64,000 bases of DNA. Source: Halalkalicoccus sp. CG83 (lineage in GTDB: Archaea > Halobacteriota > Halobacteria > Halobacteriales > Halalkalicoccaceae). Numbering within the stretch: the stretch's first letter is position 1; the number at the start of each line of letters is the position of its first letter. Below, piece after piece: positions 5,094-54,413 of the stretch. The stretch covers positions 682,001 through 746,000 of the forward strand of contig NZ_JAZDDH010000001.1 of NCBI RefSeq assembly GCF_037081715.1, written 5' to 3'. The notes below the pieces were generated by a model that had not been told where the DNA came from, searched no databases, and saw only the letters and a list, made by a program, of their open reading frames with translations. Position numbers and translations under genes: made by a program.

Positions 5094-5295
5094 TTCATAC
5101 CACATTGATTTTATATCAGGTATCCAAGTTATATGTGTCCAGATAACCGACTCAGGAACAGGAGTGTCTGAGGTCTGATCGGGAAACGCTGATGGCTCAT
5201 CGTTGACGTCAGGTCCATCATTGGCTCCTTAATCGAATCCCACTAATCCTTGCTATCGATATCGTTTAATGGTTGGGTAATTACTCCAATATCAT

Positions 5296-6396
5296 ATGAG
5301 AATTAAACCGTTCTATCACGCGGTCACACAGCGGGTGGACAAGATGAAACGCCTCTATTTTCTCATCAGTGATGAACGTAAATTCAGCCAAACTTTTGAT
5401 ATGCCGCTGAGTCAGCGATTACAGCTTTATACATATGGGTTTATGAGCCGGGCTGCAGCCTTGTACGACACTACTCGACCCAACGCGTATCTCTCCGATT
5501 TTGCCCGATATATCTACACGCCTGAGATCAATGGCGACTGGAGTGTATTTCTCAATAACAAACTCGCGTTTCACTACCTGCTTTCGGGCCATGAGAAATA
5601 TCGTGCGGATGTGTATGCAGTCCTTCAGAACGGGCGCGCTCATCCACTCCCTGCATCGCATAAGGGGGCTGGGGAGAATACCACTGGGAAGAATGCGGGC
5701 AACTGGGTCCGTAACTGTTTGGATCGAGAGGGGAAGATCGTCATCAAACCTATTACTGGTGGTGGTGGCAAAAACGTCTGTCTGTGTCAGGATCTGGGTG
5801 ACCGCTATCTTGTCAATGGAACCGCCTACAGCCTTTCTGAGTTCGACCAGCTCGTGAATGATCTCGATGAATATCTTGTCTCTGAATTCATTGAACAAGC
5901 GACCTATGCGACCGAGATCTATCCGTCAGCGCCGAACACAATCCGGGTCCTCACGATGATCGACCCTGTGACAGACGAGCCCTTCATCGCAATGGCGGTC
6001 CATCGGATCGGATCAGATGCCTCTGGCTGTTTGGACAATGTGGAACAGGGAGGATTCGCTACTGAGGTCGATCGAGAGACAGGTAGGCTCAGTGCTGCTG
6101 CGCAGTGGCAGGAGGGGAGTCTCGAATGGTATACGGCTCATCCAGATACCGATACGCGGATTGCTGACACACAGGTTCCAGGCTGGGAGTCGATCCGGAC
6201 TCGGCTACTGTCGATCGCGGACGAACTATCGTATATCCCCTATATCGGGTGGGACATTATCGTAACCGGTCCTGGTGAATTCCGGATTGTCGAGGGGAAC
6301 GACCACAGTGATGTCGAGTTTTTACAGGTCCACTGGCCATTACTGACTGACGAGCGTGTGCGGCGCTTCTACGAGGCACATGGCGTCATTAAGTGA
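5296..6396 (+). CDS. sugar-transfer-associated ATP-grasp enzyme, subtype A (copy 1)
   Basis: 366 residues resembling the sugar-transfer-associated ATP-grasp family (PF14397 type), predicted carboxylate-amine or thiol ligases encoded in cell-surface polysaccharide loci. After an N-terminal helical region come IVIKPITGGGGKNVCLC (the ATP-grasp lysine and glycine-rich loop), LVSEFIEQATYATEIYP and NTIRVLTMIDP. Near the end are YIGWDIIVTG and FRIVEGNDH, where the E and N would bind Mg-ATP. The closest relative in the window is the gene at 10885; both open with a basic helix and an ERK-x(4)-TFDMP segment. The DNA is richer in A+T than the flanks. The substrate is unknown; an amino acid or other acyl group for a surface glycan is the family-level guess. 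Confidence 0.8.
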   Translation: MRIKPFYHAVTQRVDKMKRLYFLISDERKFSQTFDMPLSQRLQLYTYGFMSRAAALYDTTRPNAYLSDFARYIYTPEINGDWSVFLNNKLAFHYLLSGHEKYRADVYAVLQNGRAHPLPASHKGAGENTTGKNAGNWVRNCLDREGKIVIKPITGGGGKNVCLCQDLGDRYLVNGTAYSLSEFDQLVNDLDEYLVSEFIEQATYATEIYPSAPNTIRVLTMIDPVTDEPFIAMAVHRIGSDASGCLDNVEQGGFATEVDRETGRLSAAAQWQEGSLEWYTAHPDTDTRIADTQVPGWESIRTRLLSIADELSYIPYIGWDIIVTGPGEFRIVEGNDHSDVEFLQVHWPLLTDERVRRFYEAHGVIK

Positions 6397-6499
6397 GCTC
6401 GTTCTCGGTTCCCTCCTATCTGGATGCCCCTCCCAAGACGGCTACTAAACGAGTGCTGTAGGACTGGCAATGAACCGTGCGGTGTTGATCTTTACATTT

Positions 6500-6963
6500 A
6501 TTGTCTGCGCAACGCGAGACGGGCGACGCTCTCCATCAACGGAGAGCAGACCGTTGGTGTGGTCGAGTTCGACGACGGTACTGAGGGGCTCATCCGGAAG
6601 ACGACGATCACAGAGGGCCCACTCAGCCAGATCGACGCGGTGACATTCCCAAAGCAGCCGTCCGCCTTGAGGACGGCGACCTCCTGGTGACGGTCCACAC
6701 CGACCAGCACCCTCGCGGGGAGATCGCGGGCATCGTCGAACCCGTCGGCGAGCACGGGAGCGATGAAGATAGTGACAGTGGTGGTGACGAGCCGGACGAC
6801 TCCAGCAGCACGGGCGACGACAGTACCGATGCTGGCGGACCAGACCGTAGTGGTGGTCCGAATGGCGACTACGACTGTGCCGACTTCAATACGCAGGCGG
6901 TCTATGAACAGGATACCTGCGATCCCCACGGGCTCGACGGGGATGACGACGGAGAGGCCTGAG
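6500..6963 (+). pseudogene. frameshifted secreted protein with Excalibur-like C-terminus
   Basis: The first frame reads SINGEQTVGVVEFDDGTEG to IDAVTFP. One frame change near 6650 then continues the same protein as KAAVRLEDGDLLVTVHTDQ, followed by a Ser/Asp/Gly linker. It ends in DYDCADFNTQAVYEQDTCDP then HGLDGDDDGEA, which matches the Excalibur calcium-binding module. That module normally ends in ACE; here the Cys codon is TGA, so the terminal Cys is lost. One frameshift plus a stop in a conserved Cys codon point to a decaying gene. The N-terminus and signal peptide are not visible. Confidence 0.7.
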
Positions 6964-7090
6964 AGCGGCTCCCTAGCGGGCGGTCTGTCTCGCTGGCGAC
7001 CTCGACGATCGATTTCGTCCGCTCGCTGTTATCGTATTCTCTCGTACCCGTCTTGGTGTGTCGTGCTATCGCTGCTTTTTCCTCCTTCGA

Positions 7091-7939
7091 TCATCCCCCA
7101 TAACCTTCCGGCTGCTTGTTATACTGTTCAAGCAGAGTCTGATCACGAAATGCATTATTCGATGTTATTTGATCCATATATTGGCGGTGTCTAACGAGTA
7201 CTACAACCGGAACGGTATCAAGCTCGAGTATCTTCGCTATGGCAAGTCTGTGTCTTCCATCAGCGAAGAGAAGATCGCCATCTCGTCCGATATCGACGAC
7301 GATTTGATTCAGCGTCCGGGCGATGATTCCCCATGATTTCTTTGAGTCGGTTGGGTGTCTGTAGCCCGTCTCTTGAATAGATCTGTAGAGCTCGTCGAGT
7401 TTGGCGCACTGTTCGCTGACATCTGTTTTGGATGAACAGCCATGCCAGACGGAATGTCCCTGATTGATGAGTTCCAACGCCCGCTGTACTAACTCGGTGT
7501 CTTTCCAGGGTGCCTCATCGATGAATCGCTCCTGAAGCGATTGATACAGAACCGTCTCCTCGAATCGTTCAGCATTGTAGAAATCATATGGGTAACCCGG
7601 ATAGATATCACGCTCCTGTTTTTGATCCCACTCTCCTCCTCGTACTGATCCAATCAGTTTTAACCTGTGTAAATGGGGGTATTCTCTTCCGGTTAGCTTG
7701 CTGATCTCTGTGGGATCAACCTGAAAGACCTGAAACGGATCGATGTTTTCGGTATAGTTCTCTATATCGTACGTCCGCATCCGTAGTACTCTCGGAGCGG
7801 TTTTCCAATACAGGCTTCGCGTCTGTTTGCTACTCATTGGTCCGCTTAGTAATGCGAATTCAATCGAACGAAGCACTAGATACTCTGTCGACTGTCGTTT
7901 CTGAATTTGTCTGATCCTTTTCCACCAATCTACAAACAC
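7091..7939 (-). CDS. ParB/sulfiredoxin-fold-like protein of the glycan locus
   Basis: 282 residues starting at a GTG (7939). The C-terminal third contains IVVDIGRDGDLLFADGRHRL followed by AIAKILELDTVPVVVLVRH. The G-R-H-R-L motif, hydrophobic helix and V-P-V strand are the signature of ParB N-terminal-like (ParB/Srx fold) domains. The N-terminal two-thirds are helical with aromatic clusters and match nothing I recognise. There is no second DNA-binding domain, so a role in chromosome partition is unlikely. Its place between ATP-grasp genes suggests a job in the glycan pathway, since this fold also supports nucleotide hydrolysis and kinase activity in other families. The role is inferred; the fold call is reasonably firm. 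Confidence 0.62.
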   Translation of the reverse strand: MFVDWWKRIRQIQKRQSTEYLVLRSIEFALLSGPMSSKQTRSLYWKTAPRVLRMRTYDIENYTENIDPFQVFQVDPTEISKLTGREYPHLHRLKLIGSVRGGEWDQKQERDIYPGYPYDFYNAERFEETVLYQSLQERFIDEAPWKDTELVQRALELINQGHSVWHGCSSKTDVSEQCAKLDELYRSIQETGYRHPTDSKKSWGIIARTLNQIVVDIGRDGDLLFADGRHRLAIAKILELDTVPVVVLVRHRQYMDQITSNNAFRDQTLLEQYNKQPEGYGG

Positions 7940-7944
7940 GACTA

Positions 7945-8045
7945 TTGACCTATATATCTCCAGCCGCGCATACTACATAAATTATGCTTTTATATACATT
8001 GTATTTATATATAATATAATATCTAAACTTACCCATTTTATTTAG
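7945..8045. promoter_or_regulatory. very AT-rich spacer with TATA-like stretches
   Basis: The 264-bp gap between two leftward genes (7939 and 8204) contains a run of alternating T and A (TTATATACATTGTATTTATA and similar), much more AT-rich than anything else in the left half. Several TATA-like elements lie upstream of the ParB-like gene, so a strong promoter is plausible. The exact transcription start cannot be fixed from sequence. Confidence 0.45.
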
Positions 8046-8203
8046 CCGAAATTGAGATTAAGACACAACTAGAACTAAGCACGTTATGGTCCCATTCTAC
8101 ACCTTCTCTACAGACTCTTTAAAAGTGTTCTTTAACATACTCGATTTATGTATAGTACGTTCGCAGACGACTTCTCTCACACCGATTACAGTGACACCAC
8201 TAA

Positions 8204-9313
8204 TTAAATTACGTCATGATGACAATAGAATCGTTGTACGCGTTCGTCGGTAAGCATCGGGCCCGGAATTTGCATCGTATTCGGCCCTGGTCTCCCATTT
8301 GCCTCGATTATTTTGAATGCATGATCTGTGACGATAACGTCCCAACCAATATATGGCGTTCGGGATAGATATTCTGCGATTGAGCAAATTTCCTCCTGGA
8401 TCATTTCCCAGTTTTCAACCTCGGTGCCGGTAACTGGTGCGCCTGTATTCGGATGATCTTTACGTCGCTTGAGTTTACCGCCGCCAGGTGTCTCGGCTAC
8501 TTCCATTAGATTCCCCGTCTCGAGATCTACCCCAGCACAGATCCCGCCACGTGACCAATTGTCAACTGGTGCAGATGCATCGGTCCCAAATCGATGGACC
8601 GCACGTGCAATGAATGCCTGATCGGTGTCTGGATCGATCATCGTGATGATTCGTAGAGTGTTAGACGCATCAGGATAGATATCAGTAGCATAGTCCGCCT
8701 GCTGGACTCGCTCATAAAGGAGAGAGTCCGTATGTTCTTTGATTGCTGTCATAACGTCACTGGGGTCGTGTTGTTTATGGTTGAGCCGGAGACTGTCACC
8801 GTTCGACTCAATGACGTCAACTCCTCTGCCGCCCATGCCCTCTGTTGGCTTGACGACAAGACCTCCCGTCGGTGGAGCGGTAACGAGATCGTCGATAGAT
8901 CGGGACTCCTCGTTATCAAATAGCCGAACCTCTCCATCTGTTATTACGCCGTAGCATTCCGGTAGATATTCGTCGTATGCGTTCAACAGCTGGTCGAACA
9001 TCCTCTTATCATGAAACAGAGGAATTAGCGGCTCATCAATTTTACAGGCCCGAAGTCGGTGCTGAGCATGACTCAAATAGTCTTCAGGATCGTGGTTATC
9101 GAAGTCGAAGACCTGCGGTGCGATCGAAATGAATCCGTGCCGCCAGAGCCAGACTCGAGTCGCCCAGTTGATATCAGCGTTCTTTGCGGCTTTGACTTCA
9201 GCATCTACAAGCAATATCATACTCACTGCCATATCACTGGAGTAATCAAGAATCATGCTTAGCAGCGGAAGAACTCCTCGTTCACGTTTAATACTAAGGA
9301 GGCGTGAAAGCAT
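8204..9313 (-). CDS. sugar-transfer-associated ATP-grasp enzyme, subtype B (copy 1)
   Basis: 369 residues, same family as the genes at 5296, 9442 and 10885. Seen in order: a helical N-terminus with VWLWRHGFISIAPQVFDFDN, then GLVVKPTEGMGGRGVDVIES (ATP-grasp lysine and glycine-rich loop), YERVQQADYATDIYPDASNT, IARAVHRFGTDASAPVDNW, and PYIGWDVIVTDHAFKIIEAN for the metal-binding end. Its best partner is the divergent gene at 9442: both have a W-R-x-G-F segment and an H-x-Q-H-R block that the subtype A copies lack. The start codons of the pair are 128 bp apart, back to back, so they may share a control region. Confidence 0.8.
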   Translation of the reverse strand: MLSRLLSIKRERGVLPLLSMILDYSSDMAVSMILLVDAEVKAAKNADINWATRVWLWRHGFISIAPQVFDFDNHDPEDYLSHAQHRLRACKIDEPLIPLFHDKRMFDQLLNAYDEYLPECYGVITDGEVRLFDNEESRSIDDLVTAPPTGGLVVKPTEGMGGRGVDVIESNGDSLRLNHKQHDPSDVMTAIKEHTDSLLYERVQQADYATDIYPDASNTLRIITMIDPDTDQAFIARAVHRFGTDASAPVDNWSRGGICAGVDLETGNLMEVAETPGGGKLKRRKDHPNTGAPVTGTEVENWEMIQEEICSIAEYLSRTPYIGWDVIVTDHAFKIIEANGRPGPNTMQIPGPMLTDERVQRFYCHHDVI

Positions 9314-9441
9314 GATGAACCCAGTTGTTCCTCACAGATATAATTAGATGTTTTGTAAAAGTATTATACAGTGACACAGTACGGACTATCAATTCTCTGC
9401 TTACCACTGACTTTTTACTACTGCCTAGTGGTAGGTCAGAT

Positions 9442-10539
9442 ATGCAGGCACTTCATCGCGTGGCTGACGCTGTCAGAGAACGAGATTCCTTCCGATTCGT
9501 TGCTAGCAGTCTCGAGTTTGCTGCCCACTGGGTCGGGGACATGCTACGACTTATCAGCGATGAACACGCCTATAATACTGACCTTCCCCTTTTAACGCGG
9601 ATCGGACTATGGCGGCGCGGCTTTCTCTCACATGGTTACGAATTTTATTCACTTGATGAGAACGACCCTGCTGATTTTATGAGTCATTATCAGCACCGAC
9701 GCGTCGCTTCGCGTGTGAATCGACATGCATCAGATCTACTGGATCACAAGATCATCTTCCAGCGATATATGGGTGGTGAGCATGAGGATGTGCTTCCTGA
9801 TCTCCGGGGATACGTTCACGACGGTGTAGTTCATCAGCCTGATGGGGAGAAACGTTCATTTCGAGACTGGGTCACTTCACAGTCCACAGGGTTTGTCGTT
9901 AAACGTAGCCTTGGCGGTCAGGGTTCGTATGTCTACGTTGTGAACGTTACCGATGATGAGCTAGAAGTCAATAGGGGCGTGAAGAACGCTGGTGAGTTGG
10001 CAGACGAAGTTGAGTCGGGTGACTGGATTATTACGGATCTCATTGAACAGGCAGACTACGCAGCCGAAATTTTCCCCGATAGCGTGAACACGCTTCGGCT
10101 AACGACGCTACTTGACTCTGAGACGGGTGATCCGTTCATTGCGAGCGCAGTCCATCGATTTGGGACCGATGCATCTGCACCAGTTGACAATTGGTCCGGT
10201 GGTGGAGCCTGTGCACGCGTCGATGCAGAAACGGGTGTGCTCACCAAGGGTGCTGCCTTCCCTGAGAAGGGAACGATGCACGTCGTCGATAAACACCCCA
10301 ATACCGGAGCCCAAATGACTGACGTTGAAATCCCACGATGGGAGATGATTCGGGATCGGATTCTTCAATTAGCAGATGAAATGCGAATTACACCGTATAT
10401 CGCGTGGGATGTCGTGCTGACTGATGACGGAATTCAAATTCTTGAAGTAAATGATCGGCCTGACCCAAACTTAATCCAAATCCACCAGGGATTATTTGAA
10501 GATCCTCGTGTTAAGCGCTCTCTCTACGATCACTTGTAA
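9442..10539 (+). CDS. sugar-transfer-associated ATP-grasp enzyme, subtype B (copy 2)
   Basis: 365 residues from the ATG at 9442. The frame is open back to 9325, but that extension is hydrophobic and not matched in the sister gene, so the shorter start is preferred. Key blocks: IGLWRRGFLSHGYEFYSLDE, FVVKRSLGGQGSYVYVVNV (ATP-grasp lysine and glycine-rich loop), LIEQADYAAEIFPDSVNT, IASAVHRFGTDASAPVDNW, YIAWDVVLTDDGIQILEVN. All expected ATP-grasp positions look intact, so it should be active. It diverges from the gene at 9313. The substrate is unknown. Confidence 0.8.
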   Translation: MQALHRVADAVRERDSFRFVASSLEFAAHWVGDMLRLISDEHAYNTDLPLLTRIGLWRRGFLSHGYEFYSLDENDPADFMSHYQHRRVASRVNRHASDLLDHKIIFQRYMGGEHEDVLPDLRGYVHDGVVHQPDGEKRSFRDWVTSQSTGFVVKRSLGGQGSYVYVVNVTDDELEVNRGVKNAGELADEVESGDWIITDLIEQADYAAEIFPDSVNTLRLTTLLDSETGDPFIASAVHRFGTDASAPVDNWSGGGACARVDAETGVLTKGAAFPEKGTMHVVDKHPNTGAQMTDVEIPRWEMIRDRILQLADEMRITPYIAWDVVLTDDGIQILEVNDRPDPNLIQIHQGLFEDPRVKRSLYDHL

Positions 10540-10884
10540 CTTCTCTTTCTATGAATCGATTGAACCGAGTGCCTCTGGAGTCCTCACTGGTTGAGTTAGT
10601 AGGCTCGTTGAAACAAGTCGAATACTCACCCAATCTTGAGTACTGAGTGACTGATGACCAGGGAAATAACGATCATAGCGTGTTTATCTGGCTCTGCTGG
10701 GATTCTCTTCTTCTGACATTCCGTAGGACTGCTCTGCTACCCGTTCTCAACGGAGGCGGTAGGAAGATACCGCTAGAGGAAATCGCATGACAGCAAGAGG
10801 GTTTCCATCCAAGTCATTTATATGTATTTTGCCAGTTTGACGGATACCACAGTGACTTTATTCATTGATATCATTCTAGATAGT
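10540..10884. other. intergenic region, 345 bp, eroded
   Basis: It holds only very short frames. One of 31 codons begins at an ATG at 10551 and has no recognisable features. A stretch at 10738-10790 has a protein-like plus-strand reading (PVLNGGGRKIPLEEIA) with no start, possibly the end of a lost gene. A TATA-like TTATATG at about 10818-10824 lies roughly 60 nt upstream of the next gene. Confidence 0.4.
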
Positions 10885-12000
10885 ATGATTCAACGAGCCT
10901 ATCACGCTGCCAAACCGTTTATAACCCGTCTCAAACGGGCGTACCATCTCTTTGAAGAGGAGCGCAAACTTCGCAGGACGTTCGACATGCCGACACGAAC
11001 GCGTCTCTGGCTCTACTTCCATGGATTCACGAGCCGTGCTCTAATGCTCTACAATCTTCAGGAGAACGGTACGGACGCCTACCTCTCTGATTTCGATCGG
11101 TTTATCAAATCGCCCGAAATCAACGCAGACTGGAGCGTCTTCCTCGACAACAAGCTCTTGTTCTACCATCTTCTCAATGAACACGAGGATCATCGGGTGA
11201 CCATCTACGGCGTTCTGAAGTATGGACGCGTATATCCCATTGATAACTCTGCTGAACCTAGTATAAGTCCTGGCCGATGGATCCGCCAGACCTTAGATGA
11301 AGAGGGATCCCTAGTTGTCAAGCCCGTCACTGGGGGTGGGGGAAAGAACGTCAGGCTCTGTCGGGTTACGGACGACGGGTATCAGATAAACGGTACGGTC
11401 CATACAGCAAGTGAGTTTGAGGGTTTGATGAGCGATCTCGACGAGTATCTCGTTTCTGAATTTATCGAACAAACGGATTATGCCCGGGAGCTGTATCCCG
11501 CGACATCGAACACGATCCGCGTGGTGACGATGGTCTGTCCGGAGACTGACGATGTCTTCATCGCTCAGGCGATCCAGCGTATGGGTGCAGACGGAACGGG
11601 ACCAGTCGACAACTTTTCCGACGGTGGCTTATCGGCGAGCATCGATATAAGAACTGGCACGCTCGGAACTGCTGCCCAGTATCCCCACCCTGATCGAACA
11701 ATGGGTATCCAGCTGGATGACCTCGAATGGCAGAACACTCACCCCGATTCGGGTGCGGAAATTACGGGAGTCGAAATTCCAGCCTGGGACGCTATTCGTG
11801 AGCAGTTGCTTGAAATAGCGGACGATCTCTCGTATCTCCCGTATGTTGGCTGGGACATAATCGTTACCGATGACGAGGGATCGTTCAAGCTAATTGAGGC
11901 CAACTCCCACCCCGGAGTGAAATCGTTGCAGGTTCATGGACCGTTGTTGGCCGATGAACGGGTACGGAACTTCTATGAGACGTACGGTGTTATCAATTAA
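10885..12000 (+). CDS. sugar-transfer-associated ATP-grasp enzyme, subtype A (copy 2)
   Basis: 371 residues from the ATG at 10885 (MIQRAYHAAKPFITRL), chosen because it lines up with the start of the gene at 5296; an in-frame ATG at 10822 would add 21 residues. It shows VVKPVTGGGGKNVRLC, LVSEFIEQTDYARELYP, NTIRVVTMVCPETDDVFIA, YVGWDIIVTD and LIEANSHPG, so the ATP-grasp core and metal ligands are present. It differs from copy 1 mainly in the loop after the second half-domain. A convergent flippase gene follows 47 bp downstream. Amide or ester ligation to a glycan precursor is inferred from family context only. Confidence 0.8.
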   Translation: MIQRAYHAAKPFITRLKRAYHLFEEERKLRRTFDMPTRTRLWLYFHGFTSRALMLYNLQENGTDAYLSDFDRFIKSPEINADWSVFLDNKLLFYHLLNEHEDHRVTIYGVLKYGRVYPIDNSAEPSISPGRWIRQTLDEEGSLVVKPVTGGGGKNVRLCRVTDDGYQINGTVHTASEFEGLMSDLDEYLVSEFIEQTDYARELYPATSNTIRVVTMVCPETDDVFIAQAIQRMGADGTGPVDNFSDGGLSASIDIRTGTLGTAAQYPHPDRTMGIQLDDLEWQNTHPDSGAEITGVEIPAWDAIREQLLEIADDLSYLPYVGWDIIVTDDEGSFKLIEANSHPGVKSLQVHGPLLADERVRNFYETYGVIN

Positions 12001-12047: not shown

Positions 12048-13472
12048 TCAGGGCGTCGTCCGGATCATACGGCTCGTCTGCTGAACGATCGTCCTTCGAA
12101 GCGGCGCGTAGATGAGTATGATCGCCCCATAGACAACGATGCCGACGCTGACGAGCGCAAACAATCGGACGGTCGTATCGACAACGATCGTTTGCTGAAG
12201 CAGGCCTACTGCGGTAAACATCCCGACAGCTGAGGTGATACACCACCCGAGTTCTCGATACGGGATCTGGAGCGTGAGATACTGTCGGAGATAGTACCAC
12301 CGGAGCAGCGCTCCGAGAGTGTATGAAAGCGACGTCGCTATCGCCGCACCGACGAGTCCGATCTGCCAGATGAGTATGGCGTTCAATACGACGTTTGCGA
12401 CGATATCGACGATCGACGCTCGATTAACGAACTGAGGTTTATCAATTCCTTCAAGTGTCTTTCCAGCGATTGATCGAAATGCCCGCGGAATCAATCCCGC
12501 AATAAGGATTGGGAGTGCAAGTGCAGCGGCTCCGAACTCCGTCCCAAACAGTAACGAGAGGGCTTCGAAGGATAACAGTGCAGCACCGAAGAACGCCGGA
12601 ATAATGAGAATTAGAGCTGGAGTCAATGCTTTCGGGATAATCCGCTCTATCCGGTCTGATTCGCCTTCTGCATCCCAGGCGCTGATCTGAGGGAAGACGG
12701 TCGAAGAGATCGAGCTTGTTAGGAGGAAGATCGGGCCGATAATACGCCATGCGATCTCATAGGCGCCGACGGCAGCTGAAGACAGAAAAATTCCCATAAT
12801 CAACACGTCCGTCCAGTTATGGGCATATGTATCAATGGAGGGAATAATCGTGTATTTCGAGTACTGCCAAATAGAAGATGCGGCCTCCATTGAAGGGAGC
12901 GTGGGTGTTGTCGATACTAGATACAGGCCGACTAGTGTTTTGGCAACAAGACCTACGATCACCCCGTATACGAGGCCATATAATTCGTATTCCATTGAAA
13001 TCAATACCACGGCCACTCCGATCCAAACGACTTTGTTGACGAACAGAAGCAGTGCAGACTCACTGACTCGTAATTCTCCTCGCAGCACATGGACCAGTAA
13101 ATGTCCGAGATCTCGGAATATTACCGTGATTATAACCAATCCTGCTATTTGCACTCCGACGTACTCATTGATATAGCTAGAGCCTAGCTCGATTACCAAG
13201 ACGACGAGCAGTAACACACCGAGCTTGAGTAGAATCCCACTCGAAAGAAACTCGCCCGGTTTCTTCCCCTCGCTCATTCGCTTTGAGATCCCAGCCCGGA
13301 TCCCGAGGTTGGAAACCATTGAGAAGACTCCAGTTAATGCTTGAAAAAGGAAAAAGACGCCTAATATTGAGGCACCCAGCTCGCGAGCGAAATAGAGAAT
13401 TCCTACGAAGCTCAGCACTGCTCCCACCATTTCCGCAATATAAAGTGTAATCCCAGACCGCGCTAGCTTCAT
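12048..13472 (-). CDS. Wzx-like polysaccharide flippase
   Basis: 474 residues with about 12-14 membrane helices and no signal peptide, in the MOP superfamily of polysaccharide exporters (PF01943/PF13440 type). Typical blocks are the N-terminal LYFARELGASILGVFFLFQA, the central NWTDVLIMGIFLSSAAVGAY, and the C-terminal repeat of the fold around FGTEFGAAALALPILIAGL. Such proteins flip lipid-linked glycans across the membrane. This is the first of three flippases in the window and the only one next to the ATP-grasp group. It converges on the ATP-grasp gene at 10885. Confidence 0.88.
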   Translation of the reverse strand: MKLARSGITLYIAEMVGAVLSFVGILYFARELGASILGVFFLFQALTGVFSMVSNLGIRAGISKRMSEGKKPGEFLSSGILLKLGVLLLVVLVIELGSSYINEYVGVQIAGLVIITVIFRDLGHLLVHVLRGELRVSESALLLFVNKVVWIGVAVVLISMEYELYGLVYGVIVGLVAKTLVGLYLVSTTPTLPSMEAASSIWQYSKYTIIPSIDTYAHNWTDVLIMGIFLSSAAVGAYEIAWRIIGPIFLLTSSISSTVFPQISAWDAEGESDRIERIIPKALTPALILIIPAFFGAALLSFEALSLLFGTEFGAAALALPILIAGLIPRAFRSIAGKTLEGIDKPQFVNRASIVDIVANVVLNAILIWQIGLVGAAIATSLSYTLGALLRWYYLRQYLTLQIPYRELGWCITSAVGMFTAVGLLQQTIVVDTTVRLFALVSVGIVVYGAIILIYAPLRRTIVQQTSRMIRTTP

Positions 13473-13671: not shown

Positions 13672-15015
13672 CTACACTATCTCAGAGACCGTGTAGCGAT
13701 ATTTTCCGGAGTCGCTCGCAGTGATCTCGTCGGGAAAGGTAAACTCGATCTCAATCTCGTCGCCGAGTAGTTTCTTCGCCTGCTGTTCGATCTCGTCGAG
13801 TTCGCTACGGGCGGGTTCGGATCCGTTGGTGAGAACGATCCGGTACACCACGTGATCGACGGCTGTCTGTCTGATCTGGAATTTCTTGATCCAGTCACGG
13901 TGATACAGTACCTTCCGGAGGTAGCCAGGGTACACGAGCTCACCATCGGGCGTGCGGAAGTGATCGGTCACTCGTCCGGTTACCGTCTCCAATTTCGAGA
14001 ACGGGAGCTCACCACCGTTTTGGTTCTCCTTCATAATGCCCATATCGCCGATCCGATAGCGAATCAGGGGCATCGTGTAGTTCGTAAGTACCGTAATCGC
14101 TAGTTCACCTTCCTTCCCGGGCGGGAGCGGATCGCCGTTGTCGTCGACTACTTCAACGTAGTGGGTGTGATCGAAGACGTGCATCCCTTCTTCGTGTGGA
14201 GACTCGCACGCGACGTCGCCCACCTCTCGCGAGCCGTACTTGTTGAGAACGGGCGCGTTGAACACCCGCTCGATTCGCTCACGAACCGGTTCGTGGAGCG
14301 TTCCGGCAGTCGAGAGGATGCCATTGGGTGAGTGGACCGCCAGATCGTTCTGTTCGATGTGCTTGGCCAGCTCGTTCATCGACTCCACGTAGACCTCCAT
14401 CGATCGAGGTTTGATCTCATTGATCCGCTTGACGTGCTCGGTCATCGTCTCCGCATTCATCCGATAGCTGTTCAGGAAATGCCGATTGAGAATGAAGTTC
14501 GAGAGACGGAATTTGAGGTCCTTGCTTTCACCTGTAACTGCACTTTCATCCCCCCAGAGTTTTACCATGGGTTCGCCGAGTTCCCGTCCCGCGAGACGCT
14601 GGTAGTAGATCTTGTTCGCGTTGTTCCAGAAGAGGTACTCGTCGTCTTGGAGGAACTCAACCGGCTCACCGGTGGTTCCGCCGGAGGTGTTTTCCCTGAC
14701 GTTCGATCCGGGTTCGGTAGAGCGAAGGCGTGCGTTCTGTTCTCGGAGCTCCGTCTTCGTGAGGAGCGGAAGCTCCGTGAATTGGTCGAGATCGACGACG
14801 CCATCCTCTACGACGTTCGCCTCCTCCAAGATGTCCCGATAGTAGGGGACAGTGGCATGGGCGTGGCGAAGGAGTTGCTTCAGTCGACGCCGCTGATAGC
14901 GTCGAAGCGTTGGTCCGGTCATCTCCTCAACCCGGTCGATATCCCTGCTGTACTCAAGGACCTCGGGTCGAGTGAGCGCGTACGCGACGCGGGGTAGGTA
15001 CTGTCTGAGACTCAT
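13672..15015 (-). CDS. CapK/PaaK-like adenylate-forming enzyme
   Basis: 447 residues of the phenylacetate-CoA-ligase-like branch found in capsule loci (CapK). The AMP-binding P-loop is seen as NTSGGTTGEPVEFL, the second motif as LNKYGSREVGDVACES, and the hinge as TVTGRVTDHFRTPDGEL. The N-terminal region has the family pattern RRLKQLLRHAHATVPYYRDIL. The enzyme should activate a carboxylic acid as its AMP ester. In a glycan locus this could prepare an acyl or amino-acid group for attachment, which would fit the ATP-grasp genes on the left, but the acid is unknown. A PaaK housekeeping role is unlikely because no phenylacetate genes are nearby. Confidence 0.82.
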   Translation of the reverse strand: MSLRQYLPRVAYALTRPEVLEYSRDIDRVEEMTGPTLRRYQRRRLKQLLRHAHATVPYYRDILEEANVVEDGVVDLDQFTELPLLTKTELREQNARLRSTEPGSNVRENTSGGTTGEPVEFLQDDEYLFWNNANKIYYQRLAGRELGEPMVKLWGDESAVTGESKDLKFRLSNFILNRHFLNSYRMNAETMTEHVKRINEIKPRSMEVYVESMNELAKHIEQNDLAVHSPNGILSTAGTLHEPVRERIERVFNAPVLNKYGSREVGDVACESPHEEGMHVFDHTHYVEVVDDNGDPLPPGKEGELAITVLTNYTMPLIRYRIGDMGIMKENQNGGELPFSKLETVTGRVTDHFRTPDGELVYPGYLRKVLYHRDWIKKFQIRQTAVDHVVYRIVLTNGSEPARSELDEIEQQAKKLLGDEIEIEFTFPDEITASDSGKYRYTVSEIV

Positions 15016-17621: not shown

Positions 17622-19061
17622 ATGAATATTATCGTAATAGTAGCGGATACAGCACGGTACGATATCGCTACAGAGGTGTTCTCTGATTCAGCGTGGGCAT
17701 CCGACGCTACTCACTACACGCGTGCGTTCGCCAACGCCCCATGGACGCTTCCCTCTCATGCGTCCCTGTTCACCGGGACCAACCCCTCGAACCACGGAGC
17801 CCACGCGGACCACAAGCAGTTATCGTCAGAACTTACTCCGCTGGCTGAAGCGTTCCAACACGCCGGCTACGAGACCGCCGCCGTCTCGAACAACACCTGG
17901 ATCAGCGAGGAGTTCGGTTTCGCACGTGGGTTCGACACCTTCCACAAGACGTGGCAGTACGTCCAGTCGGATACCGATCTCGGCGAAATCGCGAGAACGA
18001 AGGAGGGGACCGATAAGCTCCGTGCCGTCGCGAACAAGCTCACTGACGGTAACCCGTTGACGAACATCACGAACGCGATCTACGGCCAGTTCTTCAGAAA
18101 ACAGCAGGACGACGGTGCGAAGCAGACCAATCAATGGGTCGCCAACTGGTTACAGGACCGGGACGGCACCGCCCCGTTCTTCCTCTTCATCAACTATCTT
18201 GAACCTCATCTCGAGTACAGACCGTCAGAGGAGTTCACTAAACAGTTCCTCCCCGACGGGGTCTCCTACGACGAGGCGATGGACGTCCCCCAGAACGCCT
18301 GGTCCTATATCGCCGGCAAGACTGCGATGTCCGACCGGGAGTTCGAGATCCTTCGGGCGCTCTATCGCGCTGAGCTCGCATATCTGGATGGGCGGTTCGC
18401 TCAACTCAAACAATTGCTTGAGGACGCCGGCGAGTGGGAGGACACGGTCTTCGTCGTTATGGGTGATCACGGCGAGAACATCGGTGATCACGATCTGATG
18501 GATCACCAGTACTGTCTCTATGATACCTTGCTCCACGTCCCACTCATTATCAACGGTGGGCCGTTCACGGGAGGCACCGAGGACGACCGTCTCGTTCAGC
18601 TCACGGATCTCGCACCGACGCTTCTCGACGTAGCCGGCATTGACGCGCCGGAGGCACGAGACCAGTTCCAGGGCGCATCATTCCATCCGAATGCGGACGC
18701 CGAGCCACGCGAGTACGCGGTCGCGGAGTACCTGGCCCCACAGCCCTCGATGGAGGCGCTTGAGAAACGCGTTGGCGACCTTCCTGCTGACGTCTACGAG
18801 TACGACCGTTCGCTCCGCGCGATCCGGTCGAGCGACCACAAACTCATTCGCGGTTCCGATGGCACTCGCGAGCTCTATGATGTCGTCGACGATCCCGGAG
18901 AACAACATAATATCGCCGACGAGAACCCGGAGATCGCTGACGAACTCGAAGCAAAGCTCGACGACTGGCTCGACTCATTCGAACACGCCGACACCTCCGA
19001 ATCCGTCTCGATGACGCAGTCCACTCAGGACCGGCTCGAGGATCTGGGCTATCTCCAGTAG
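17622..19061 (+). CDS. sulfatase-fold (alkaline phosphatase superfamily) protein
   Basis: 479 residues with all superfamily landmarks: IIVIVADTARYD for the first metal site, ANAPWTLPSHASLFTG at the nucleophile position, and VVMGDHGENIGDHDLMDHQY for the distal metal site. The nucleophile position has Thr (W-T-L-P-S) instead of the C-x-P-x-R or S-x-P-x-R that formylglycine sulfatases need, so arylsulfatase chemistry is doubtful; a phosphatase or phosphotransferase acting on glycans is as likely. No signal peptide is seen. GGAGG lies about 12 nt before the ATG. The C-terminus ends RLEDLGYLQ, a tail shared with the other three sulfatase-fold proteins here. Confidence 0.82.
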   Translation: MNIIVIVADTARYDIATEVFSDSAWASDATHYTRAFANAPWTLPSHASLFTGTNPSNHGAHADHKQLSSELTPLAEAFQHAGYETAAVSNNTWISEEFGFARGFDTFHKTWQYVQSDTDLGEIARTKEGTDKLRAVANKLTDGNPLTNITNAIYGQFFRKQQDDGAKQTNQWVANWLQDRDGTAPFFLFINYLEPHLEYRPSEEFTKQFLPDGVSYDEAMDVPQNAWSYIAGKTAMSDREFEILRALYRAELAYLDGRFAQLKQLLEDAGEWEDTVFVVMGDHGENIGDHDLMDHQYCLYDTLLHVPLIINGGPFTGGTEDDRLVQLTDLAPTLLDVAGIDAPEARDQFQGASFHPNADAEPREYAVAEYLAPQPSMEALEKRVGDLPADVYEYDRSLRAIRSSDHKLIRGSDGTRELYDVVDDPGEQHNIADENPEIADELEAKLDDWLDSFEHADTSESVSMTQSTQDRLEDLGYLQ

Positions 19062-19120: not shown

Positions 19121-20224
19121 CTACCTGCTCTTCGAGACCTGTTCGAGTGTTCTCGTCGTCTGCTCGACGGTAGCACTCCACGTGTACTCCTTCTCGACGA
19201 CCTGCCGCCCGTCGTCGTACTGTCCTGAAAGCGCCCGTATCAGTCCGCGAGCGAACCCCTCGATGTCGCCGACGGGGACCGTCGTCCCGGCTCCGTCGAT
19301 CACCGGCGCAACCTGCTTGAGGTCCGAACAGACTACGGGGACGTTACACGCCATCGCCTCCAACACTGTTCGCGGAAGCCCTTCCGCACGGCTGGGCAAC
19401 ACGAGTGCATCACCCGCGCGATACAGTGCCGGCATCTCGTCGTACGGTAACTGTCCAAGGAATCGAACTGATCCCTCTAACTGCTCGTTCGCTACCTGCT
19501 CCTTGAGTTTTCCACTCAGTGCCCCTTCACCACACAGGTAGAGCCTCGCTTCGGGATGCGCCTCCCGTACCCGCTTGATGGCCGCGACCGCGTCCTGTGG
19601 GCGCTTCCCGTCGACCAACCGACCGACGAACAACACGACTGGTCCATCGTGGTCGAGCAAGTCGCTTTCGGGCCCCTCGGGCGTGAAGCGCTCGGTGTCG
19701 ATCCCGTTCGGCACCACCTCGATGTCGCTCTGGACGCCGAACTCCCGCACTCGATTTCTGTCCTCCTCGGTGTAGCAGAACACCACGTCCGCCCGGTTGA
19801 ACGTCCACCGACCCACGCTCCGAAGGTACACGTCGAAGACCCACTCGGGTGCGTTCTGGGAGTAGAGGCCGTGGTTCGTGATCGCAAGCGGAACGTCGCT
19901 CAGTCGCCGTTTTAGTGCTGCGAGGTTCGTCGAGAAGTAGAGATGCGAGTGGGCGTGCATGACGTCGAACGCTGCCGCGTCCTTGAGGTGGCGTGCGACG
20001 CCGAGCGAGACGTCGTTTCCGAGCGCGGTCACGCTCGGCCGGTAGCGGACGACCCGATACCCGTCGCGTTCCTCGACGGCCGGTTTCTCGGGATCGCCAT
20101 CGACCGTCACTACCGTTACGTCGTGCCCCATCGCCGCCTGGTCACGACTCATTGCGTGGACGTGGTACGGTCCGCCACCCTTCACGTCGGGATAGACCTT
20201 CTGTGCGACGCGTAGAATGCGCAT
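19121..20224 (-). CDS. GT4-family glycosyltransferase
   Basis: 367 residues from the ATG at 20224 (MRILRVAQKVYPDVKGGG). The longer frame to 20281 is rejected because it overlaps the remnant upstream and has no family match. It is a GT-B fold: donor domain with GPVVLFVGRLVDGKRPQDAV and the GT4 motif YRAGDALVLPSRAEGLPRTV followed by LEAMACNVPVV. The His in NHGLYSQNAPEWV sits where an acceptor loop is expected. It converges with the sulfatase-fold gene. The transferred sugar cannot be read from sequence. Confidence 0.9.
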   Translation of the reverse strand: MRILRVAQKVYPDVKGGGPYHVHAMSRDQAAMGHDVTVVTVDGDPEKPAVEERDGYRVVRYRPSVTALGNDVSLGVARHLKDAAAFDVMHAHSHLYFSTNLAALKRRLSDVPLAITNHGLYSQNAPEWVFDVYLRSVGRWTFNRADVVFCYTEEDRNRVREFGVQSDIEVVPNGIDTERFTPEGPESDLLDHDGPVVLFVGRLVDGKRPQDAVAAIKRVREAHPEARLYLCGEGALSGKLKEQVANEQLEGSVRFLGQLPYDEMPALYRAGDALVLPSRAEGLPRTVLEAMACNVPVVCSDLKQVAPVIDGAGTTVPVGDIEGFARGLIRALSGQYDDGRQVVEKEYTWSATVEQTTRTLEQVSKSR

Positions 20225-20629: not shown

Positions 20630-22162
20630 CTAACGTGGCACTGAACTGCCACTCATCCTTTGACTACGCTTTGTCAGGAGCACAACCGCGAATGCTGGGA
20701 GCAGCAGGACAACATCCTCGAGGAACGCAATCAGCGCGTTGTTTACGAGTCCGTATGGGATAAGGTGTGCCATGACGAGCGCGAAGGCGAACAGAGCGAG
20801 CAGCGAGTTGCGGTTCTGGTAGAGCGTCCAGTAAGTGAGTTTGAGTAGGACGCCGTAGATGATCGCCCCGATGACGATCCCCGGAATGCCGGCGTTGATG
20901 TAGAACGAGCCCATGTCACCCGGCGGCAGTCCACCCGATCCATCGGGGATCACCCACCGGCGGATCACCCCACCTTCGGTCGAGACTGGCTTCTCGGACC
21001 AGATGGCACGCGGTATGAAGTTCATGATTACCCGAAGATAGAATGTGCCGTACTGATATCCCATCTCCGCGGGAACCATTTCCATCAGTGCGATCATGTT
21101 GTCGAAGGTGTCGTTATGGACACCTGCAGAAACAATCCTGAGTGGGTCGACCGAGCGCAGTGCGGTGATCGGGGACCCATCAGAGCGGGCGGCCTGCGCG
21201 CCGATCAAGAACACCGAAGCGACGGCCCAGAACACGGGGAGCAGTAGGAAGTGAGCCGTCGGGTGAAGCCGCTGTGCGAACATGAACACGGGGTTATCGG
21301 AACGATCGTAGCCAGCGAATCCACGGAGCGCCGCGTAATAGCCTAGGATCGCGAGGACGATTCCGATCCGGACGACCGCCGCGCGACCGCCGAGCAACGA
21401 GATGAGTCCGAGGATGACGGGGAGGGTAAGGATCTGCGCAGCCGAGGGGAGTTCACGCCGGCTCATCGTCGCGAGGATCCAGAGGAAATAGCCGATATAT
21501 GTCATATTCGCGATAAGGATGAGCGGACCGAGCCCCTCGAAGAACTGGCTCCGGGAGACGGATGTCGTGTAGAGGAGTAGTGGGTTTCCGGCAGTGACAA
21601 CCCATAGCAGGTAGGCGTAGCCGACCAGACCGACCGCGATGTAGCCAAGCCCGATCCGTCGAAGTACCGTCTCTCGTCCGCGGATAGAGAGCCGTTGCGG
21701 GAGGGATATCGTGGGTGGGCGGTAGAGGTAGTACGCGCCAAGGAGGACCGCGAAGTATACGATGTAGAGTACGCCGACGGTCGTGAAACCGGCCTCAAAC
21801 GGCGTCGAGAGCCCTAATCCGTCAATCGTGTACTCGCGCGGCTCATAGTAGAGCCGTTGAATATACGCGATGGCGAGCATGAAGATGAACAGCGACTTGA
21901 ACACCATCGGCTCAAAGAGGTCAAAGCGACCCGACCGCGCGCTTAGGAGCCACGGGATCCCCGCGAGTGAGAGTAGCAGGCCGGCGATTAGCGGGAAGGG
22001 CGACCATTCGACCCATGCGATCACTGCTCCCGCGACCGTAACTGCGATGATGACTACTACGAGAGCGTACAGCAGGAGCCTCGCGCGGCGCGATTCGTGG
22101 GCGGGTGTTCGATCGGCCACTGGGGACCGGGATTCGGTTCTCAATCTTGGAGGTCCGCTCAT
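20630..22162 (-). CDS. Wzy-like oligosaccharide repeat-unit polymerase
   Basis: 510 residues with about 12 membrane helices after an Arg-rich cytoplasmic N-terminus. A large extracytoplasmic loop near residues 340-420 contains NDTFDNMIALMEMVPAEMGY and GTFYLRVIMNFIPRAIWSEK, the look of O-antigen or oligosaccharide polymerases (PF14296/PF01901-like). Its ATG overlaps the stop of the upstream flippase gene by 4 bp, so the two are translationally coupled. A Wzx and a Wzy in this order form a classic export and polymerisation pair. The repeat unit is unknown. Confidence 0.75.
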   Translation of the reverse strand: MSGPPRLRTESRSPVADRTPAHESRRARLLLYALVVVIIAVTVAGAVIAWVEWSPFPLIAGLLLSLAGIPWLLSARSGRFDLFEPMVFKSLFIFMLAIAYIQRLYYEPREYTIDGLGLSTPFEAGFTTVGVLYIVYFAVLLGAYYLYRPPTISLPQRLSIRGRETVLRRIGLGYIAVGLVGYAYLLWVVTAGNPLLLYTTSVSRSQFFEGLGPLILIANMTYIGYFLWILATMSRRELPSAAQILTLPVILGLISLLGGRAAVVRIGIVLAILGYYAALRGFAGYDRSDNPVFMFAQRLHPTAHFLLLPVFWAVASVFLIGAQAARSDGSPITALRSVDPLRIVSAGVHNDTFDNMIALMEMVPAEMGYQYGTFYLRVIMNFIPRAIWSEKPVSTEGGVIRRWVIPDGSGGLPPGDMGSFYINAGIPGIVIGAIIYGVLLKLTYWTLYQNRNSLLALFAFALVMAHLIPYGLVNNALIAFLEDVVLLLPAFAVVLLTKRSQRMSGSSVPR

Positions 22163-23595
22163 GATGCTGTCATTATCTTGACTAAACTCGACACTTCACG
22201 GCGGCGAAGACCGCCGGTCGCGAACAGGCAGACCGCGTATACCGGTGGGGCGAGTGCAAGGATGAGAATCCAGTGCAGCGGCACGAAGGCCATTGTGATT
22301 CCCATCAGTCCGGTAGCGACGAGAATCCGGCTAAGGCGGCCCCAATTGGGGACAACTCGGAGGGTATCTTGAAAGAGCCATCCGAGGAGAATCGCTCCGA
22401 CACCGAATGATGCGATCGTGGTGAGTGCTGCGCCAGCGACGCCAAGTACTGGGATCAGCAGGACGTTCAGAACGGCATTAAGCGCGACCATTGTGAGCTG
22501 GGCGAGCAGCGGCGTCCTCGAGTCACCGGTGGCGTAGAACAGCCGTTGGTAGACCTCGGCGCATCCCCTGAGGAACATTGCGAGTGCGATCAGGACGAGA
22601 AGGAGGTGTCCGGCGTCCGCGACCTCAGCTGTTGAGATCAGTCCGATCACGGCGTCGCCGATCAAGGCGAATCCTATTATCGCCGGTAGGGCAATCGTTG
22701 AGAAGTACCGGATACCAGTTTTCGTGTACTCGACAATCGTCCGGCGATCTCCCTCGTTCCAAAGGGTCGTGAACTCCGTATAGAACGACGCGTTGACGGG
22801 CGTGACGAATAATAAGATTAGGTAGGCAATGCTATAGGCGACGCTGTAGACACCGACCGCACTCGCTCCGAGGAAGAATCCGATGAGCACTCGATCGACC
22901 TTGTCAAGCGCGTGTTTTGAGAGATCGCCGCCCATCGTCGGTAGCGAGAACGCGAGCGATTCCCGGGCGATATCTACGGACGGAGCCGATATGCCGACCT
23001 CCCGAACGACGGGAAAAGTGATCGCTGCGGTGATCACTATTTTTGCGAGGACGACCGCAACGAACGCCTCGATGACCGTTCCATCAAGGGCGAGAATCGT
23101 GATCGCGACGGCGGCGACAAGCAGCCAGACGTCAACGGCCTCGATCCCGGAGTAGAGTCGAACCCGGCGCTGGGCATGGTAGTATGCCCGCGAAATCCTG
23201 AAGATGGCTTCAAACGGGATGTATGCGGCCGCCGCGACGAAGAGAAGCGTGTACTCGGTTGTGCTGAGTGTGTATACCGAGAGTAGTTCTGCACCCCCGG
23301 CGATGAATCCCGCGATGGTGAGTGCGGCCAGTCCCGAGAGGACGAACATCGTCGAGACGAGTTGGGAGGTCCGCGTACCGTCCGAGTCGAGCTGAACGAG
23401 TCCGGTATCGAGCCCGAGCGCGGCAACGTTCACGGCGATAATCGCAATGCCAAATGCTTGGACGAAGGCACCGTAGTCGGCGACCCCGAGGCCGAGTGTG
23501 AACAACGGGATGAATAATAGCCCGCGGAGCTTGAGGCTCGCCGTGAAGAGCGTCGAGATGATGATATCGCCCGAAATCTTCTTCGAGAGAGTCAT
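22159..23595 (-). CDS. Wzx-like polysaccharide flippase
   Basis: 478 residues, 14 predicted helices, MOP superfamily. The N-terminus has DIIISTLFTASLKLRGLLFI and LGVADYGAFVQAFGIAII; the second half has ALDKVDRVLIGFFLGASAVG and VYQRLFYATGDSRTPLLAQL, the family's two-lobed repeat. It is the middle gene of a leftward set: a 51-codon ribbon-helix-helix-like ORF ends 2 bp upstream, and the polymerase overlaps downstream by 4 bp. Its partner in lipid-linked glycan export is probably that polymerase. Confidence 0.9.
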   Translation of the reverse strand: MTLSKKISGDIIISTLFTASLKLRGLLFIPLFTLGLGVADYGAFVQAFGIAIIAVNVAALGLDTGLVQLDSDGTRTSQLVSTMFVLSGLAALTIAGFIAGGAELLSVYTLSTTEYTLLFVAAAAYIPFEAIFRISRAYYHAQRRVRLYSGIEAVDVWLLVAAVAITILALDGTVIEAFVAVVLAKIVITAAITFPVVREVGISAPSVDIARESLAFSLPTMGGDLSKHALDKVDRVLIGFFLGASAVGVYSVAYSIAYLILLFVTPVNASFYTEFTTLWNEGDRRTIVEYTKTGIRYFSTIALPAIIGFALIGDAVIGLISTAEVADAGHLLLVLIALAMFLRGCAEVYQRLFYATGDSRTPLLAQLTMVALNAVLNVLLIPVLGVAGAALTTIASFGVGAILLGWLFQDTLRVVPNWGRLSRILVATGLMGITMAFVPLHWILILALAPPVYAVCLFATGGLRRREVSSLVKIMTAS

Positions 23596-25108: not shown

Positions 25109-26560
25109 TCATCTCGCTTTGCTCTCATCGTGACGCTCTTGGCCGATAAACACCTTCACCGAATCCAATAGTGCGATCCACATCTGTCGAATCACGATCT
25201 TCACATCCAGCCAGAACGACTGCCGCCGAATGTACTCCAGGTCGTAGCGAAGCTTCTCCGTCGGATTCGTACTCGACGCATCGTTGATCTGTGCCAATCC
25301 CGTCAGGCCCGGTTTGACGAACCAGCGCTTTCGCCACTCGACAGCCTCCTCTTCGAGCAGCGCCTCTTCGTCAGTCCAGGCCGCTCGCGGGCCGACGACG
25401 CTCATGTCGCCGGTAAGAATCGCCCAAAGCTGGGGAAGCTCATCGAGGTGTGATTTCCGGAGCAGCCGACCAACGCGGGTGATCCGGTCATTCTCGCCGT
25501 CGTCGACGGGATCGGATGACTCGCTGCCTGGCAGCATCGTCCGAAACTTCAGCACGTCGAACGTTCTGCCGAGTCCGGCGGTTCGCGTCTGTCGGTAGAA
25601 GACCGGTCCGGGACTGTCGAGTTTGATCGCGAGCGCGATTAGCCCGAGTAGTGGTGCGAACGCCGTCAGTCCCGTCAGCGCGAATCCGACGTCGAAAATC
25701 CGCTTCAGTAGTCGGTCCTGCCAGTCCCACGGCTCGAGGTCGATCGTTACGAGCTCTCCTGCGGTTTCGTCCGAGAGCAGCACGCTGTCGGCGTGTTCGC
25801 GAAGCACTTTCGCCTCGACCCCATGAGCGTGACAGGTCTCGAGGACGCCGAAGAACTCTCCTCGGTCCGTGCTCCTGAACGCAAACACAACGGTGGCAAT
25901 ATCATGTTCGACGAGGATCTGCTCGAGCCGGGAGAGCCCGCCAAGGGACTGAAGATCCGAGGAGGGCATTTCGATCGTGCCGCCATCGGTCACTGTTGGT
26001 GTCGGTGATCGTGCTTGATCTGAGTCGATATTGATGCCGAGCGGCGGAGAGAGATAGCCCAGTACGGGGCTCTCGATCGCGTCCGCAGCTCGATTGATCT
26101 GGGCTGGATCGTCACCGACGATGATCGCCGGTTTCTCGCCCTTGATAGGCTGATTCCCAAGAATGACGAACCAGGCTGGAAGGACGATCAGCAATATGCC
26201 CATCGTCATCGCGAGCGTCGCACGCGGGAGCCGGTACGTCATATTAAAATAGCCGAGCGTCGCGAGCGCGAACATCGCCACCAGCACTCGTTTTTGCGCC
26301 AGAAAGATCGTATCCAAAATCCGTCGTGGACGTGGCTTGTACAGCGGGATCAGACAGGAGAACACGACGGCCGTGCTGAGTCCGACTGCCAGAAACAGTC
26401 TCTGTCCGTCTAGCACCACCACTGGAAGCCGTCTTACTACGGGCACGTAGCCTGTGAGGAGCATCTGCGGGATCGAGTGGTTCGCGATCAGGACGGCGAT
26501 TGCCGTCCACACCACGGTTCCCGCAGCGCTCATCAATCGATATCCTCCCCACTGTGCCAT
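25109..26560 (-). CDS. polyprenyl-phosphate sugar-1-phosphate transferase (initiating enzyme)
   Basis: About 483 residues. The N-terminal half has four or five membrane helices and a Rossmann-like CoA-binding-type domain (IIVGDDPAQINRAADAIE). The C-terminal half is the catalytic WbaP/PglC-type domain: KRIFDVGFALTGLTAFAPLL, LKFRTMLPGSES, KSHLDELPQLWAILTGDMS, VGPRAAWTDEEALL and KPGLTGLAQINDASS. The usual basic and acidic catalytic residues (KFRTM, DELPQ, GPRA) are visible. It should move hexose-1-phosphate from a UDP-sugar to dolichol phosphate. The ATG at 26560 is chosen; an upstream extension is not conserved with the copy at 34043. The likely promoter is the AT-rich stretch at 26612-26640. 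Confidence 0.92.
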   Translation of the reverse strand: MAQWGGYRLMSAAGTVVWTAIAVLIANHSIPQMLLTGYVPVVRRLPVVVLDGQRLFLAVGLSTAVVFSCLIPLYKPRPRRILDTIFLAQKRVLVAMFALATLGYFNMTYRLPRATLAMTMGILLIVLPAWFVILGNQPIKGEKPAIIVGDDPAQINRAADAIESPVLGYLSPPLGINIDSDQARSPTPTVTDGGTIEMPSSDLQSLGGLSRLEQILVEHDIATVVFAFRSTDRGEFFGVLETCHAHGVEAKVLREHADSVLLSDETAGELVTIDLEPWDWQDRLLKRIFDVGFALTGLTAFAPLLGLIALAIKLDSPGPVFYRQTRTAGLGRTFDVLKFRTMLPGSESSDPVDDGENDRITRVGRLLRKSHLDELPQLWAILTGDMSVVGPRAAWTDEEALLEEEAVEWRKRWFVKPGLTGLAQINDASSTNPTEKLRYDLEYIRRQSFWLDVKIVIRQMWIALLDSVKVFIGQERHDESKAR

Positions 26561-44427: not shown

Positions 44428-44447
44428 CCCCGCCCTAAAGGGCGGGG
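44428..44447 (-). repeat. right-end stem-loop, probable omega-RNA 3' region
   Basis: CCCCGCCCTAAAGGGCGGGG is a perfect 8-bp stem with a 4-nt loop. The tnpB stop codon (44435-44437) lies inside it, so translation end and structured RNA overlap. In studied TnpB systems the guide (omega) RNA comes from the end of tnpB and the right end, with the guide part reading into flanking DNA; here that guide would come from the end of the MoxR gene. The RNA itself is inferred. Confidence 0.6.
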
Positions 44448-54319: not shown

Positions 54320-54406
54320 GGCCTGCAGCCAAGTACAGGCCTTTGTTCGTGTCTGGAAACGGGTACGTCAGGCTCGATCGGAAGACGACGCGCGTCAGTC
54401 GACCGG

Positions 54407-54413
54407 CTTTTTA
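54407..54413 (+). promoter_or_regulatory. TATA box of the DUF1616 gene
   Basis: CTTTTTA lies 24-30 bp before the ATG at 54437 in GC-rich DNA, the usual distance for a leaderless haloarchaeal transcript. Confidence 0.5.

Follow-up and report, generated by a model that had tools for sequence, protein, structure and literature searches.

We found that a stretch of 64,000 nt from the genome of the haloarchaeon Halalkalicoccus sp. CG83 (C1:682001-746000, hereafter the window) encodes four diverged members of the sugar-transfer-associated ATP-grasp family PF14397 (ATPgrasp_ST) within 6.7 kb, next to a polysaccharide locus of the Wzx/Wzy type. The genes are referred to here by their left-hand window positions as 5296, 8204, 9442 and 10885. 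The reading that we favour, with somewhat better than even confidence, is that the four are cytosolic carboxylate-amine ligases that would decorate the repeat unit of a Wzx/Wzy-type surface polysaccharide before its export, with separate substrates or positions. The enzyme family was already known; its multi-copy arrangement is unusual but recurrent.

An earlier, sequence-only reading of this DNA had placed ATP-grasp genes at these four positions and named a search against PF14397 as a check. All four open reading frames (ORFs) lie within the family, scoring 118.6-138 bits against a gathering cut-off of 31.4. Only six members exceed the cut-off in the 3.64 Mb genome, the other two being a standalone copy (C2:306526) and a 599-aa relative (C1:2327058), and the presence of four within 6.7 kb is therefore not a matter of chance. 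No match to the TupA-like family PF14305 was found in the four proteins (E <= 0.01) or genome-wide, by a search that detects this family in ten other haloarchaea. The four weakly resemble the RimK-related glutamate ligases of TIGR02291 in the ATP-grasp core (1e-9 to 1e-13), but their scores of 37.4-50.4 bits are far below the cut-off of that model, 314.2. A search with the ATP-grasp profile found no sequence relatives in the PDB, and on reading the four proteins no transmembrane segment or signal was seen. The four resemble PF14397 at large in their high scores and complete set of active-site residues, and differ from it in standing as four diverged copies in one locus.

The 16 diagnostic positions show no variation among the four copies and almost none across 58 archaeal and 29 bacterial alignment rows; numbered as in the 10885 protein, they include the ATP lysines K90 and K146, G150, G153, R212, R232, D324 and E338-x-N340. 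The terminal E-x-N metal motif ascribed earlier to every copy is indeed present in each. The Lys/Gly-rich loop is only partly as described: a Gly-rich loop occurs in all four, but the loop lysine is found only in 5296 and 10885 (GGGGKN), the corresponding sequences being GMGGRG in 8204 and GGQGSY in 9442. With open frames and all active-site residues kept, the description of the four copies as intact stands. An AlphaFold2 model of the 10885 protein (22-row alignment; predicted local distance difference test, pLDDT, 92.3; predicted template modelling score, pTM, 0.90) has the ATP-grasp fold that was to be looked for: among 357 PDB matches returned by Foldseek at E <= 0.001, the top 50 are all ATP-grasp enzymes, and the best include the peptide ligase PsnB, ArgX and the D-Ala ligases (Ddl), with TM-scores that are low by query length (0.30-0.41). 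The N-terminal part of the model (about residues 1-105) consists of helices throughout; in classical ATP-grasp enzymes this part is an alpha/beta domain. By family, active site and, for the 10885 protein, modelled fold, we infer that the four are intact ATP-grasp ligases, their ligase activity being a prediction.

Amino-acid identity is 52-53% between 5296 and 10885, 40% between 8204 and 9442, and 34-39% between the pairs. In a maximum-likelihood tree of 94 rows, 5296 and 10885 (support 100/100) and 8204 and 9442 (92/96) are sister pairs, within a haloarchaeal part whose overall support is weak (82/58). Identities and clade analysis thus recover the two N-terminal subtypes recognised previously, here A (5296 and 10885) and B (8204 and 9442), and the subtype B genes are divergently transcribed, as had been noted, across a gap of 128 bp; 8204 also carries an extra N-terminal 'KRERGxxxLL' stretch. 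Because the two subtypes form two sister pairs, the four copies appear to stem from two duplications, both inside the haloarchaeal clade of the tree. Since both subtypes have duplicated and diverged, different substrates or positions are probable; each copy would then serve a substrate or position of its own and would not be a back-up.

TATA-like hexamers scoring 5-6 of 6 lie 28-31 nt before the ATGs at 5296, 9313, 9442 and 10885 (a score of at least 5 is reached at 11.6% of random positions in the region) and thereby support these starts; the alternative starts at 9325 and 10822 score lower (3 and 2, respectively). The boxes fit separate, leaderless transcripts of the four genes. A promoter-like box for each gene, and not one for a single operon, speaks against the stepwise form of the mechanism first proposed for this block, in which the four enzymes act in sequence and extend a glycan by a short peptide or chain of amino acids. 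Two subtypes lie side by side here and also in bacterial arrays, in one of which (L123) two subtypes alternate over four copies, and this would suit such a chain; however, no amino-acid supply genes were seen in the block, and the data do not separate sequential from parallel action. We regard stepwise chain building as very unlikely.

A PF14397 match over cut-off was found in 133 of 394 genomes of the class, mostly with one or two each; where a genome had many candidates six were scored, so these counts are lower bounds. Among the matches listed for the 394 genomes, the four diverged copies of the window are the most in one locus. Diverged sets of three occur in Halococcus thailandensis and in genome G210, and diverged pairs in Halegenticoccus soli and in genomes G258, G361 and G364. 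The tree gives separate origins to the window pairs, the Halococcus triplet, and the Halegenticoccus and G361 pairs. Among bacteria, Planctomycetota and Desulfuromonadaceae carry two to four tandem copies, often with a GT4 glycosyltransferase or radical SAM gene beside them. Copies within a locus are 22-66% identical and are therefore not dosage repeats. Each of the three Halococcus paralogues has a ratio of nonsynonymous to synonymous substitution rates (dN/dS) of 0.085-0.107 between two species. Given that diverged sets recur and that the Halococcus copies are under purifying selection, the copies look non-redundant.

The same results bear on whether duplication has merely left the window with redundant or decaying copies. 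The AT-rich, accessory character of the block and a pseudogene-like fragment nearby (about 6540-6962) would agree with this, but the four frames are open, their active-site residues are all kept, promoter-like boxes are present, and the orthologous triplets of Halococcus are under strong purifying selection; we consider redundancy or decay extremely unlikely. As a separate observation, two Desulfuromonadaceae loci (L131 and L135) combine a radical SAM gene with three tandem diverged ATP-grasps, and a GT4-like gene lies near in L131 and L127.

Table 1. Features of the ATP-grasp block and the adjoining polysaccharide locus, in window coordinates
Feature	Position	Strand	Basis
TATA-like box TTTAAT, gene 5296	5265..5270	+	
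ATPgrasp_ST ligase (predicted), subtype A copy 1, 366 aa	5296..6396	+	PF14397, 3.9e-34
ParB/sulfiredoxin-fold-like protein of an unnamed family, between ATP-grasp genes	7091..7939	-	fold comparison, non-significant
ATPgrasp_ST ligase (predicted), subtype B copy 1, 369 aa	8204..9313	-	PF14397, 4.6e-40
TATA-like box ATTATA, gene 8204-9313	9339..9344	-	
TATA-like box TTTTTA, gene 9442	9412..9417	+	
ATPgrasp_ST ligase (predicted), subtype B copy 2, 365 aa	9442..10539	+	PF14397, 1.2e-34 (ORF from 9325)
TATA-like box TTTATT, gene 10885	10857..10862	+	
ATPgrasp_ST ligase (predicted), subtype A copy 2, 371 aa	10885..12000	+	PF14397, 2.4e-35 (ORF from 10822)
MurJ/Wzx-type flippase, adjoining the block	12048..13472	-	PF03023, 1.9e-18
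PaaK/CapK-like AMP-forming acyl-activating enzyme	13672..15015	-	PF00501, 2.7e-07; NCBIfam PaaK-type matches below cut-off
Sulfatase-superfamily enzyme of the polysaccharide locus	17622..19061	+	PF00884, 8.7e-31
GT4 glycosyltransferase, part of genus-conserved anchor	19121..20224	-	60-76% identical beside GalE and phosphoglycosyl transferase genes in other Halalkalicoccus
Wzy-like repeat-unit polymerase (putative)	20630..22162	-	TIGR04370, 8.8e-04, below cut-off; 37% identical homologue in the ATP-grasp locus of G258
Wzx flippase	22159..23595	-	45% identical homologue adjoining two ATP-grasp genes in G258 (L047)
Phosphoglycosyl transferase, probable initiating enzyme	25109..26560	-	bacterial sugar-transferase-type sequence, by reading

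The family had been predicted to act in surface polysaccharide synthesis, and the association with sugar-transfer genes that goes with PF14397 is found in the window, where GT4, phosphoglycosyl transferase (PGT), Wzx and Wzy genes form the adjoining locus (Table 1), but not for standalone copies. Genome G258, from the same family as the window genome, likewise has GT4b, GT4c, Wzy and Wzx with two ATP-grasps (L047). A flippase is present in eight of the ten clustered haloarchaeal ATP-grasp loci that we looked at, and not beside standalone copies; in Natrialbaceae, the orthologues are accompanied by genes for a flippase, a GT2 enzyme and a polysaccharide deacetylase. These three findings argue against the possibility that the enzymes serve to produce a free metabolite, or act on a protein or peptide, their polysaccharide neighbours merely reflecting a variable genomic island. 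That explanation could draw on the standalone copies that the genus has in different surroundings (L050-L052, L055, L056 and L061), on the weak similarity to RimK-related ligases, on the AT-rich island itself (GC 0.48-0.52, compared with about 0.66) and on the bacterial sets beside radical SAM genes. We judge it to be unlikely. An anti-phage role of the block was rejected, PADLOC giving no match.

Part of the locus is conserved in the genus. The GalE-PGT-GT4b anchor is kept in other Halalkalicoccus genomes (GalE 79-88% identical), and a second phosphoglycosyl transferase at 34043, a paralogue of that at 25109, is 49-67% identical across the genus. In the stretches around the anchor in the other Halalkalicoccus genomes no ATP-grasp genes were found, and the GC of the ATP-grasp genes and the ParB-like gene is 0.475-0.52, whereas two regions elsewhere in the genome have about 0.66. 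Because it is AT-rich and has no counterpart in those stretches, the ATP-grasp block appears by sequence comparison to be an accessory addition to a conserved locus.

As to chemistry, each ligase would use ATP and Mg to convert a carboxylate to an acyl phosphate, which would be passed to an amine to yield an amide. The four would act in the cytosol, on a repeat unit still linked to a nucleotide or lipid, before the flippases export it, and the target that we prefer is a uronic acid of the glycan, amidated by a small amine, an amino alcohol or an amino acid. The closest analogy is Cj1438C of the Campylobacter jejuni capsule, an enzyme of TupA-like fold that acts on the growing capsule, where it couples (S)-serinol phosphate or ethanolamine phosphate to glucuronic acid as an amide (PMC11800379). 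Both systems place an ATP-grasp ligase in a polysaccharide locus; they differ in that the Campylobacter enzyme is fused to a glycosyltransferase, whereas the Halalkalicoccus four are free-standing, and in family, Cj1438C being placed in PF14305 by its TupA-like fold and the four in PF14397. The two families do meet in haloarchaea: TupA-like ATP-grasps occur in 10 of the 394 genomes, and in three of these (G045, G393 and G269) a TupA-like gene lies within 10 kb of an ATPgrasp_ST gene, compared with 0.045 pairs expected by chance. Asn_synthase/GATase proteins are encoded near ATP-grasp genes in L045, L047, L048, L062 and L126. The genome also encodes UDP-sugar dehydrogenases, so uronic acids are probably available. 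Taken together, the Asn_synthase/GATase neighbours, the co-location with TupA, the Cj1438C analogy and the UDP-sugar dehydrogenases make sugar amidation the best explanation. A separate observation is that TupA-like genes can be seen within haloarchaeal ATPgrasp_ST loci at L053:10466-11392 and L059:4464-5390.

The direction of the reaction might instead be reversed, the ligases activating the carboxylate of an amino acid and coupling it to a sugar's amino group, much as PurD does with glycine and phosphoribosylamine, to give N-aminoacyl sugars such as those in Halococcus walls. Amino-acid-containing glycan walls are known from coccoid haloarchaea: that of Halococcus morrhuae is reported to have N-glycyl-glucosamine bridges, with up to 100 nmol glycine per mg (PMC4187196), and Natronococcus occultus has a glutaminylglycan (PMC4187196, PMC4243693). 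The glycine contents of the H. morrhuae and H. salifodinae walls differ 14-fold. Three ATPgrasp_ST genes lie round a flippase in H. thailandensis and G210, and divergent relatives in Microbacterium (L148-L153) are found beside alanine-racemase genes, a hint at an amino-acid substrate. However, a direct link to the H. morrhuae wall, which predicted the triplet in relatives, was rejected: the nearest genomes to H. thailandensis in gyrB comparison (G158, 96.7%; G254, 94.9%), among which H. morrhuae is expected, have no strong ATPgrasp_ST gene. By this gyrB test, which is indirect, the likely relatives of H. morrhuae differ from the window genome, and the N-glycyl-glucosamine wall of that species serves as a chemical precedent only. 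No glycan analysis of Halalkalicoccus was found in the literature. We think the reversed direction rather unlikely. A further wall polymer, the teichuronopeptide of the alkaliphile Bacillus halodurans, combines acidic amino acids and uronic acid and is linked to tupA, the namesake of PF14305 (PMC8153356); the family of tupA differs from that of the window genes.

Amidation of the repeat unit by the four ligases needs to be interpreted cautiously, as several results weigh against it. PF14397 is not tied to polysaccharides, because standalone copies, one of them in the window genome, occur away from glycan genes: a genus-wide standalone ATPgrasp_ST gene has genes for an S10-domain protein and an M20 peptidase beside it in an operon-like arrangement (L051:7787-10558 and L052:9390-12148). 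The family is thus not confined to glycan loci, and membership alone is no proof of a glycan role. We found no demonstrated reaction for any PF14397 member in the literature searched, nor any paper there that names the family. The Wzy and PGT assignments come from weak matches or reading, and since TupA and ST are separate Pfam families the Cj1438C precedent remains an analogy. Lastly, dS is saturated for the window pairs, and no orthologue of the window copies is similar enough for a dN/dS estimate.

With its intact active sites, its polysaccharide context and its repeated duplication within lineages, the family provides concrete, deletable candidates for the genes of amino-acid-containing haloarchaeal wall polymers, which have been described since the 1970s and for which we found no underlying genes in the literature. 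That bacteria show this multi-copy design as well points to a general means of diversifying glycan decorations. A bolder idea, which we hold to be distinctly unlikely, is that two-subtype ATPgrasp_ST sets are a general, convergent archaeal and bacterial toolkit for the amide decoration or cross-linking of surface glycans, in which amino acids would be linked to amino sugars by one subtype and to uronic acids by the other; if so, a haloarchaeal wall would be amide-cross-linked without enzymes of the peptidoglycan type.

The protein encoded at 7091 belongs to a family found in 151 of the 394 haloarchaeal genomes sampled and multi-copy in haloarchaeal genomes. It has no Pfam match; its nearest profile is that of the serine kinase SbnI (E 0.12), and its model (pLDDT 85.5) gives Srx, ParB/Noc and SbnI as best Foldseek matches, all non-significant (E 0.03 or worse). 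As Cj1438C uses phosphorylated amines, one could speculate by analogy that the 7091 protein is a kinase supplying such an amine. An N-terminal 'YRxxGxxxLL' module may be common to subtype B, ParB-like and TupA-like proteins, which is suggestive only: a small hidden Markov model returned mostly its own seeds, together with one new ParB-like match at 0.0016 and two near 0.09, while shuffles gave none below 0.01.

In L049, a gene next to two ATP-grasps encodes a homologue of the PaaK-like protein at 13672 (53% identity). In the fragment at about 6540-6962 the frame is broken by a stop, an Excalibur-like DGDDDGEA stretch is seen at its end by reading, and 6687-6959 has no Pfam match. A TnpB-like ORF of an insertion element was recognised by reading at 44435-45634 on the minus strand. 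A second glycan stretch (53000-63979) contains GT2, DUF354, GT4 and several sulfatase-like genes and is AT-rich from 56796 (GC 0.46-0.52).

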